This document shows positions 11,664 through 45,655 of a stretch of DNA of 64,000 nt, piece after piece. The position numbers were made by a program, and so were the translations under genes. The stretch's first letter is position 1, and every line of letters begins with the position of its first letter. The notes under the pieces were generated by a model. It was not told where the DNA came from, searched no databases, and saw only the letters and a list, made by a program, of their open reading frames with translations. The stretch comes from Halorubrum halophilum (GTDB taxonomy: Archaea; Halobacteriota; Halobacteria; Halobacteriales; Haloferacaceae): assembly GCF_000739595.1 (NCBI RefSeq), contig NZ_BBJP01000023.1, positions 1-64,000 of the forward strand, read 5' to 3'.

Positions 11664-12025
11664 GTGCGGTGGCGCGCGCCTCCGAGTGGCCGCCAGGGGC
11701 GGCCACGAGGAGTCCGTGCGAGGGACGCGGTGAGCGCTTTTAAGCGCGAACCGCGAGGCTGGGGAGGCGTGAGGCTGCGGTGCTGCGCGGTTGGGTGGGA
11801 CTCAAAGGGGCAGTCGCGAGGACGAAGCCTAACGACGCAAGCACCACAACGAGGGAGCGAGTGAAACGAGCGACTGAGTGAGGAGCGCAGCGAGTCATGC
11901 GAGTCGTCGCGGCTGGGGCTTTGGAGGTGGTCACCGTCGATCTGCTAGAAGCCATCTATAAGCGATCGACTGCGACTGTGGAGGCGTTCGCCGTCGATCC
12001 GCCGGCAGTCATTTATAAGTAACCG
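11664..12025 (+). repeat. Dispersed structured element, copy A
   Basis: Begins TGCGGTGGCGCGCGCCTCC and holds, in order: a GA-bracketed hairpin (arms GTGGCCGCC and GGCGGCCAC, loop AGG); a second GA-bracketed hairpin (outer CGCGGT with ACCGCG, inner GCGCTT with AAGCGC); a conserved GGTGGGACTCAAAGGGG block; a long stem with arms 11803-11823 and 11903-11924; then degenerate repeats of about 55 bp containing TATAAG motifs to about 12020. A TATA-like GATAAAATAC is at 11627-11636. The rest of 11569-12085 holds no gene. Copies B, C and D share this plan. A structured RNA is the preferred reading; a DNA-level repeat is possible. Confidence 0.65.
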
Positions 12026-19821: not shown

Positions 19822-20060
19822 TTATAAATACGGTGCGGTGGCGCACGCCTCCGAGTGGCCGCCCTCGGCGGCCACGAGGAGCCCGTGCGAGGTCGCCGGC
19901 GCGTAGCGCCGGCTGCCAGAGGGACCTTCGGTCCCTCGCTGGACGCCGCGAGCGCTTTTAAGCGCGAGCGGCGAGGTTGGGGAGGCGTGAGGTTCGGGGC
20001 GGTTGCGGGGCGGTTGCGGTGCGGGGCGACCGAGGCTGTGGAGCTCTTCACCGCGGAGTC
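19822..20060 (+). repeat. Dispersed structured element, copy B (5' half only)
   Basis: A TATA-like TTATAAATA at 19822-19830 precedes TGCGGTGGCGCACGCCTCC. The first GA-bracketed hairpin has arms 19855-19863 and 19867-19875 with loop CTC. The second keeps GCGCTTTTAAGCGC but its outer stem is CGCCGC with GCGGCG, a compensatory change against copy A. Between them sit two extra perfect hairpins (GCCGGCGC with loop GTA; GAGGGACC with loop TTC). The GGTGGGACTCAAAGG block and long stem are missing. The rest of 19816-20148 has no gene. Confidence 0.6.
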
Positions 20061-38040: not shown

Positions 38041-38493
38041 GTGTATATTCGGCGTCAGATCGACGGTGAGTATCTCTGTAGCTCCAGCCGCTCGGCGATA
38101 CGTGATCGACTCCTCTGCGATGAACACCTTTCAAAGCCCCAGCCGCGACGACTCGCGCGACTCGTTGTCGTTCGAAAGGCGCTCCGCGCCTTTCGTGATG
38201 ACGAAACGGCTTCGCCGTTTCGAACCACGCTCCTCAGTCGCTCGTTTCACTCGCTCTTGCGGTGCTTACGTCGTCGTGCTTCGTCGACGCGGCAGCGAGG
38301 CGCAAAGCGCCTCTGGAAGCCGGCGGCGTTGCCGCCGGCGACTGCCCCTTTGAGTCCCACCCGACCGCAACCTCACACCTCCCCAGCCTCGCGGTTCGCG
38401 CTCTCCGAGCGCTCACCGCGTCCCTCGCGCGGTGCTGACTCGCGCCCAGAGGGCGCTCGCAGGCACGCGCCACCGCACGGCAGACCTATTTAT
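38041..38493 (-). repeat. Dispersed structured element, copy C, with four inserted hairpins
   Basis: Read on the minus strand: a TATA-like CTTATAAATA overlapping the mtnP stop, then TGCGGTGGCGCG, two GA-bracketed hairpins (GCGCCC with GGGCGC, loop TCT; GCGCTC with GAGCGC, loop GGA), the GGTGGGACTCAAAGGGG block, and the right arm of the long stem near 38140-38160. Inside the long stem are four perfect hairpins with 3-nt loops: 38173-38195, 38202-38222, 38297-38313 and 38319-38339. Degenerate repeats of about 55 bp follow to about 38041. No protein gene is supported in 38024-38489. Confidence 0.65.
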
Positions 38494-39356
38494 AAGTACT
38501 CTCCCAGCAGCGGCTCGACGCGCTCGCGGGTCTCTTCCGGGATCGCCTCGGTGGGCGTGTTGACGGTGCCTTCGAGGGAGGTGTGCGCCTCGCACTCGAG
38601 GTCATCCGGAAGCGCTCGCACGGCCTCCTCGACGGCGGCCTTGATCGCTTTCTGATTCTGCTCGGCGTTTTCGAGGACTTCTTCGAGCGTCACCTCGCTG
38701 TCCGCCTTCCAGACGTCGTAGTCGGTGACGCCGGCGATCGTCGCGTACGCGATCTCGGCCTCGCGGGCGAGCTTCGCCTCCGGGATCGCAGTCATGCCGA
38801 CGAGGTCCCACCCTTGGCTCTTATAAAACTCCGACTCCGCGCGCGTCGAGTACTGGGGCCCCTCGATGCAGACGTAGGTGCCGCCCTTCACGACGTTCGT
38901 GTCGGCGGGTGCGGACGACTCGGCGGCCTCGGTGAGGTGCTCGACCAGTTCGGGGCTGTACGGGTCCGCGAACGGCTGGTGGACGACGACGCCGTCGCCG
39001 TAGAAAGAGAGGTCGCGGTGCTTGGTCCGGTCGTAGATCTGGTCGGGGACGACGAGGGTGCCGGGCTCCAGTTCCTCCTTCAGACTGCCGACCGCGTTCG
39101 ACGCGAAGACGTGGGTGACGCCCGCCTTTTTGAGGGCGTACATGTTCGCGCGGTACGGGAGGTCGGTGGGCGAAACGCCGTGGTCCGAGCCGTGTCGGGG
39201 GAGGAACGCGACCTCCGTCCCGGTGTCCGCGAACTCGCCGATCGTGATCGCGTCGCTCGGCTCGCCGTAGGGCGTGTCGTACTCGACCTCGCGCACGTCG
39301 TTGAGGGGCAGCGCCTCGTAGATACCGCTGCCGCCGATGAAGCCGATGGTGCTCAT
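38490..39356 (-). CDS. mtnP: S-methyl-5'-thioadenosine phosphorylase
   Basis: 288 residues. The N-terminus IGFIGGSGIYEALPL, the phosphate-binding FLPRHGSDHGVSPTDLPYRAN and the purine-binding VCIEGPQYSTRAESEFYKSQGWDLVGMTAIPEAKLAREAEI mark the MTAP/PNP family. It splits methylthioadenosine to adenine and MTR-1-P for methionine salvage; some haloarchaeal members may prefer other purine nucleosides. A TATA box CGTATAAGTAG about 27 nt upstream of the ATG suggests a leaderless transcript. The stop codon overlaps the promoter-like end of repeat copy C. Confidence 0.93.
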   Translation of the reverse strand: MSTIGFIGGSGIYEALPLNDVREVEYDTPYGEPSDAITIGEFADTGTEVAFLPRHGSDHGVSPTDLPYRANMYALKKAGVTHVFASNAVGSLKEELEPGTLVVPDQIYDRTKHRDLSFYGDGVVVHQPFADPYSPELVEHLTEAAESSAPADTNVVKGGTYVCIEGPQYSTRAESEFYKSQGWDLVGMTAIPEAKLAREAEIAYATIAGVTDYDVWKADSEVTLEEVLENAEQNQKAIKAAVEEAVRALPDDLECEAHTSLEGTVNTPTEAIPEETRERVEPLLGEYL

Positions 39357-45245: not shown

Positions 45246-45655
45246 CGGTAAACACTGCGGTGGCGCGCGCCTCCGAGCGCCCGCAGGGCGCGAGGAGTAC
45301 GCGCGAGGGACGCGGTGAGCGCTCGAAGAGCGCGAACCGCGAGGCTGGGGAGGTGCGAGGCTGCGGTTGCGGTGCGGTCGGGTGGGACTCAAAGGGGCAG
45401 TCGGGAGGACGAAGCACGGCGATACAAGGACCGCAGGGAAGGAGCGGAGCGACTGACCGAGGACCGCAGCGAGCCGCGCGAGTCCTCCCGACTGGGGCTT
45501 TGGAAGTGTCCACCGCCGGTCCGTGCTCAACCGTTTATAAGCAAGCGGCTGGGGCGTTGGAGGTGTTCGCCGTCGACCTATCACTAACCATTTATAAACG
45601 GGCGGCTGGAGCGTTGGAGGTGTTCGCAGCGTCACCGATGGTGACGACGAGAAGC
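45246..45655 (+). repeat. Dispersed structured element, copy D, with TATA-bearing tandem units before gatB
   Basis: Starts TGCGGTGGCGCGCGCCTCC at about 45255. The two GA-bracketed hairpins have arms GCGCCC with GGGCGC (loop GCA) and GCGCTC with GAGCGC (loop GAA). The GGTGGGACTCAAAGGGG block is followed by the long stem, arms 45390-45410 and 45482-45503, with a GGG opposite GGG internal loop. Three degenerate units of about 55 bp follow, with CGGCTGGGGCG or CGGCTGGAGCG starts and CGTTTATAAGC or CATTTATAAAC ends, to about 45650. 45158-45759 holds no protein gene. Confidence 0.65.

Follow-up and report, generated by a model that had tools for sequence, protein, structure and literature searches.

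A dispersed three-hairpin element of Halorubrum that is mobile at TTATAA sites and resembles the palindrome-associated elements of haloarchaea

Introduction

Transposons of the IS200/IS605 type move by means of a Y1 transposase through a single-stranded DNA intermediate, and REP/BIME elements, which are moved by RAYT proteins, are dispersed, structured, intergenic sequences mobilized in trans. Haloarchaea harbor several kinds of small repeats without a transposase, namely MITEs, SMRs, and PATEs, the last an established kind with near-terminal palindromes, from Haloquadratum (PMC3119063). Haloarchaeal omega RNAs and sotRNAs provide a further point of comparison, that is, a structured strand linked to mobile elements (PMC12558985).

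Here, we describe a dispersed element with four copies (A to D) in the window, the whole stretch of 64,000 nucleotides of Halorubrum halophilum that was analyzed. Its likeness to PATEs (PMC3119063) is extensive: both are haloarchaeal, transposase-free, and high in copy number, with a palindrome close to each end, end regions that vary, and a conserved end oligonucleotide; both lack conventional terminal inverted repeats and are host to insertions of other small elements. At ~260 bases (about 260 to 400), and with no recurrent gene beside 60 copies, the element is too short for a transposase; hairpins 1 and 3 form the palindromes near its ends, which differ from each other save for TTATAA and a short GCGGTG/CACCGC similarity. 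It departs from PATEs in having TTATAA at both ends and tandem 3′ tails, in a conserved three-hairpin core with a G-A ladder that is recognizable across many genera, and in that no ends in common with IS605-type transposons were found (16 Y1 loci and 30 TnpB loci). The flanking TTATAA motifs may represent a target duplication or, instead, a target on the left and a cleavage motif on the right. The element works like a PATE; because IS605-related ends were not found and the target duplication is ambiguous, we do not claim that it belongs to a described PATE family.

By analogy, the element would share with IS200/IS605 transposons its single-strand end hairpins, a short fixed target, and insertion beside a target motif, but it has no autonomous member: no Y1 transposase was found in any member, and more than 120 copies occur in genomes without a detected Y1 gene. 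It is also like REP/BIME elements in being dispersed, structured, and intergenic and, presumably, in being mobilized in trans; it differs from them in its greater length, its three hairpins, its motif, and the absence of a Y1 profile partner from two genomes. Omega RNAs and sotRNAs are set apart by the lack of an Rfam match to the element at gathering score and of any enrichment of its copies near TnpB genes. Some copies are embedded in a MITE-like element that has inverted ends, whereas the core itself has no such ends.

Copies in the window

An initial annotation had placed four copies at 11664, 19834, 38477 (minus strand), and 45255, and inspection of the sequence confirmed these positions; the hairpin arms, the arm swaps between copies, and the GA brackets that it listed are exact in all four. 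The element that it reported at 45255 to 45380 is real, but this span covers the 5′ half only, with hairpin 3 and the tails lying further 3′. The complete order is hairpin 1, hairpin 2, a purine-rich linker, a G-rich run in which the number of GCGG units varies between copies, hairpin 3, and one to several tails of ~57 bases.

In copy D (plus strand), the 5′ module (45257 to 45400; cmsearch score, 142.5 bits; E = 2.4e-30) comprises hairpins 1 and 2, the conserved linker, the G-rich stretch, and GGGACTCAAAGGGGCAG. Covariation supports both hairpins: hairpin 1 (45263 to 45304) consists of an outer stem, a GA/GA bracket, and an inner stem GCGCCC/GGGCGC, and hairpin 2 (45311 to 45341), which carries a GA ladder in other genera, reads CGCGGT-GA-GCGCTC-GAA-GAGCGC-GA-ACCGCG. 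The linker (45342 to 45360; AGGCTGGGGAGGTGCGAGG) is unpaired, near-invariant in the seed of the covariance model, and retained in other genera. Hairpin 3 (45390 to 45502), delimited by sequence and fold, runs from CAAAG to CTTTG, contains a GGG/GGG internal loop, and has a GA ladder at its tip. Three tails are recognizable in the sequence: the first (45498 to 45540) ends in TTATAA (45535 to 45540), and the second and the degenerate third (45541 to 45640) include a TTATAA at 45592 to 45597. No TTATAA lies ahead of copy D, unlike copies B and C. The linker and GCGG run (45342 to 45390) are rich in G doublets and triplets, which may form G-quadruplexes in a potassium-rich cytoplasm.

Copy A (11666 to 12018, plus strand) has its 5′ module at 11666 to 11813 (133.3 bits), hairpin 3 extending to 11923, and tails reaching a TTATAA at 12013. 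Copy B (19822 to 20060, plus strand) is degenerate: it begins with TTATAA at 19822, a double palindrome of ~50 bases (about 19893 to 19943) is inserted between hairpins 1 and 2, and hairpin 3 is lost, and the covariance model matches it as two pieces (19841 to 19888 and 19915 to 20004). Copy C (38100 to 38495, minus strand) combines a 5′ module at 38476 to 38342 (130.2 bits) with a hairpin 3 that contains inserted palindromes, and its right end lies near 38132; its TTATAA (38490 to 38495) includes the upstream gene's stop codon. Copies A, C, and D are members of the covariance-model seed.

Copies B and C were originally described as closely preceded by a TATA box. The TTATAA is present in both, but its spacing does not suit that reading: across copies, TATA-like motifs are most frequent at −13 to −19 and at −44 to −49 relative to the start of the element rather than around −25 to −35, which rules out a TATA-driven transcript starting at the element. 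T-run terminators past the 3′ end are rare (TTTTT in 3 of 161).

Family size and distribution

The genome of H. halophilum contains at least 40 copies by Blast and at least 149 covariance-model matches (150 candidates scored), and eight sampled congeners have 18 to 151 such matches each; every one of the 22 congeners sampled first has matches by Blast. Running the model (seeded with 22 copies) over haloarchaeal genomes, as had been proposed at the outset, recovered the family in 74 of the 195 genomes searched of the order and in 22 of its 66 genera, H. halophilum's own genus counted. Matches beyond Halorubrum score lower (E of about 5e-11 at best). These relatives nonetheless represent the full element with its parts in the same order: GGCGCG, hairpin 1, GCGAGGGA, hairpin 2, GGYTGGGGAGG, GGGACTGAAAGGGGC, hairpin 3, and GGGGCTTTC. 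Among the matches listed, an exact 17-base core pattern occurs in contigs titled Halorubrum and in one uncultured archaeon. The phage records searched contain no match to the element and the viral contigs searched no exact core match, and phage carriage was rejected on this basis.

The hairpin 3 region of one relative matches 38 plasmid records from many haloarchaeal genera. Hairpin 3 stands alone on haloarchaeal plasmids (loci L338 to L340, near 2501 to 2615), which shows that the 5′ module and the 3′ module can occur apart. Closely spaced inverted pairs of 5′ modules, either head-to-head or tail-to-tail, are common in other genera (loci L280, L283, L292, L293, L301, and L304).

Fold and covariation

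In the 22-copy seed, whose alignment was not fitted to the structure but from whose own sequences the structure string was derived, two-sided changes occur in 13 of 29 pairs and 97.1% of cells are paired, versus 88.4% in shuffles; sliding the partner strand reduces pairing to at most 57%. Among 104 copies aligned to the model, an alignment that is fitted to the structure and thus leans towards it, two-sided changes affect 26 of the 29 pairs, and pairing is 95.7%, versus 75.7% when shuffled. Broken down by hairpin, the changes involve 9 of the 17 pairs of hairpin 1 in the seed (14 of 17 among the 104 copies) and, somewhere among the 104, all 12 pairs of hairpin 2. Even the 35 matches from seven genera outside Halorubrum are 83.2% paired (61.9% shuffled). 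The base pairs covary as do those of structured RNAs, and pairing is far above chance in both the seed and the 104 copies.

The three pairs directly outside the GA bracket of hairpin 1 occur in 27 distinct combinations and are 84% paired (52% shuffled); they vary independently of one another, and whole-hairpin swapping is therefore not the explanation of the pattern, although it also occurs, with entire hairpins differing between copies at one site. The observations provide strong support for selection on one strand of the element to fold into three hairpins. As to the original proposal that pairing conserved over sequence points to selection on RNA, selection on a folded single strand is borne out by the two-sided changes and the retention of GA brackets, in other genera as well, but the identification of that strand as RNA is not. 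Stems contain more G·U than A·C (76 versus 32), a strand asymmetry equally expected of RNA. Folded with standard RNA parameters, the element yields a good structure (z-score, −4.0); the opposite strand's z-score is as low.

The GA brackets had also been likened to kink-turns, in which a three-base bulge precedes the tandem G-A pairs, a likeness that does not hold: the GA/GA brackets are symmetric and have no such bulge. In keeping with the suspicion that no named RNA has this plan, Rfam returned no match at gathering score for the window and six other loci, and a permissive search of copy D returned chance matches only. With GA brackets kept while nearly all flanking pairs change, the family offers a clean data set for distinguishing among RNA, single-stranded DNA, and no selection on palindromes.

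The G-A ladder

Alternating Watson-Crick and tandem G-A pairs are known mainly from short synthetic oligonucleotides, and the ladder is a natural, evolving example of this motif in cells with molar internal salt. It consists of two Watson-Crick pairs alternating with tandem GA/GA (e.g., GC-GA-GT-GAA-AC-GA-GC) and generally occupies the tip of hairpin 3; hairpin 2 has it in some copies and in the majority of the other genera. Hairpin 3 has a ladder in 141 of 163 distinct sequences (98 of these with at least two rungs), against 5 in the reverse complements and about 6 in shuffled sequences. Most ladder loops have three bases, with GNA accounting for about half, and GNRA tetraloops are rare. Together, ladder strand bias and stem asymmetry demonstrate selection on one strand in its single-stranded form, but these facts alone do not separate RNA from DNA. 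Our leaning to DNA derives from the extraordinary stability, as DNA, of C(GNA)G loops on short GC stems, from the absence of a promoter or terminator placed for a defined transcript, and from the plain mobility of the element. Mini-hairpins of the d(GCGAAGC) type are extraordinarily stable, with 76.5°C given for a 2-bp stem (PMC10527192); arguing from such known stabilities, the preference for GNA loops may be taken as a sign of DNA.

Insertion at TTATAA

Of 170 copies, 68 have a TTATAA 7 to 9 bases from the 5′ end (GCGG) and 86 have one within 30 bases, the expectation being about 0.01 per 25-base window; about half of the copies have no left TTATAA, and the other-genus relatives have none at the 5′ end. 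On the right, 101 of 176 copies have the motif, usually at a distance of 34 or 37 bases from where CTTTG begins. In congeners, the site of copy C is filled, empty, or filled in reverse orientation (the last at loci L104 and L109); at the sites of copies B and D, the nearest genomes contain the element and others are empty. The element is thus mobile within the genus, prefers TTATAA, and can insert in either orientation. A plain transposable element had been named at the outset as the finding that would overturn an RNA reading; mobility at TTATAA and TTATAA at both ends agree with such an element, but the usual terminal inverted repeats are missing. Filled copies at a single site can be quite dissimilar in sequence, which makes it likely that one hot spot received independent insertions, but exchange between copies could also produce differing fills. 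In Halorubrum, promoters and gene ends have repeatedly been remodeled by insertion at TTATAA.

Some copies occupy a TTATAA within a second repeat with inverted ends, such that TTATAA flanks both ends of the copy, and uninterrupted versions of this repeat exist (loci L122 and L127). Composite repeats at different sites of one genome are 100% identical over 427 bases and 99.4% identical over 464 bases, which shows recent movement of the composite, although this evidence does not cover the core alone. The composite (loci L342 to L348 and L121 to L150) is roughly 450 bases long, has inverted ends GCGGGAGT...ACTCCCG with the element between two TTATAA, is present in near-identical copies in genome G011, and contains TATTTAAA about −46 ahead of the core.

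Arrays of 3′ tails with a period of about 57 bases also exist in other genomes, and no solo tails clearly independent of the core were found. One such tandem array (G021:C3:1575117-1575540; period, about 57 bases) has at least seven units.

Search for a mobilizing enzyme

None of the 16 Y1 (IS200) loci has termini in common with the element, and next to no TTATAA was found there; moreover, two genomes with 128 to 129 copies have no Y1 match. The 30 TnpB loci share no termini with it beyond chance neighbors, and a copy is near 3 of them, about what density predicts. IS200 and TnpB were rejected as present partners, since ends are not shared and proximity is at chance level. Among 148 open frames near 60 copies, there is no recurrent neighbor gene. 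Reverse transcriptases of PF00078 (RVT_1) are missing from nine genomes, some with more than 100 copies, whereas control genomes were positive, and a retroelement operating through PF00078 was rejected. A mobilizing enzyme, as yet unrecognized or lost in these strains, must be assumed. High copy numbers across many genera, with no gene of the element's own and no identified mover, point to an unrecognized mobilizing system in archaea.

Interpretation

The reading that we favor, tentatively, is that of a non-autonomous, palindrome-associated (PATE-like) mobile DNA element of haloarchaea that is moved in trans as folded single-stranded DNA. The folded form would be single-stranded DNA, such as that of the lagging-strand template, with hairpins 1 and 3 as putative end hairpins; an enzyme supplied in trans would recognize the fold, cut at TTATAA on both sides, and transpose the element, by analogy, in the peel-and-paste manner of IS200/IS605. 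Repeated insertion at the right-hand TTATAA, or slippage there, may have given rise to the 3′ tails. In favor of this reading are the filled, empty, and reversed sites, the TTATAA at the ends, the spread of composites, the covariation, the strand specificity of the ladder, the preference for GNA loops, and the precedent of haloarchaeal PATEs. Against it are the lack of a transposase with these ends, the other-genus relatives without a 5′ TTATAA, the half of copies without a left one, the good fold with standard RNA parameters, and the conserved unpaired stretches, which are typical of functional RNAs.

The main rival, a mobile family of functional structured RNAs, is a somewhat less probable but serious possibility: such RNAs would be transcribed from neighboring or inserted promoters, bind a protein, and serve the host or the element. 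Covariation coupled with conserved unpaired sequence across genera, the excess of G·U over A·C, the strand-specific ladders, and the RNA fold score are all compatible with it, but no TATA box is suitably spaced from where the element begins, T-run terminators are scarce, the loops differ from the usual RNA tetraloops, no Rfam family matches, and the opposite strand folds as well. Transcripts of a PATE are known from at least one Halorubrum virus-host system (PMC10544981), which adds to the case for RNA; given that the phage collection contains no match to our element, we do not equate the two. In its strongest form, a haloarchaea-wide class of mobile structured RNAs with a protein partner of its own and helices of two Watson-Crick and two sheared G-A pairs, spreading into TTATAA sites, an RNA reading seems rather unlikely.

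Alternatively, selection might not act on a single strand at all, and the element might be a palindrome or cruciform of double-stranded DNA in which template switching and exchange between copies keep the arms paired. The differing whole hairpins at one site would suit such a process, as would the inverted hairpin 3 tip of locus L022 (3 of 155 tips are classed as inverted) and the inner stems, which are often perfect palindromes. Copy correction, however, should erase the GA/GA brackets, which instead persist while flanking pairs change singly and in many combinations, and the ladder bias and G·U excess are strand specific; we disfavor this explanation as improbable. A derivation of the element, as a remnant, from the guide RNA (omega RNA) of IS605/IS1341 transposons is very unlikely: such RNAs are expressed in haloarchaea (PMC12558985) and PATEs have ends in common with these transposons (PMC3119063), but the few copies near TnpB loci accord with density, standalone hairpin 3 modules on plasmids adjoin no TnpB in the three regions inspected, and Rfam yields no match at gathering score. 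Least probable of all is a SINE-like retroelement copied via RNA; the structured body and the repeated 3′ tails speak for it, and the PF00078 result above speaks against it.

Inserted palindromes

Double palindromes of ~50 bases (e.g., GCCGGCGGC..GCCGCCGGC plus AGAGGCGC..GCGCCTC) are inserted into hairpins of the element at 19893 to 19943 and 38200 to 38340 of the window and at loci L007, L019, and L020. They are similar to the terminal-only PATEs of 52 bases, and sequence adjoining a Y1 transposase locus (L270) matches one of the types.
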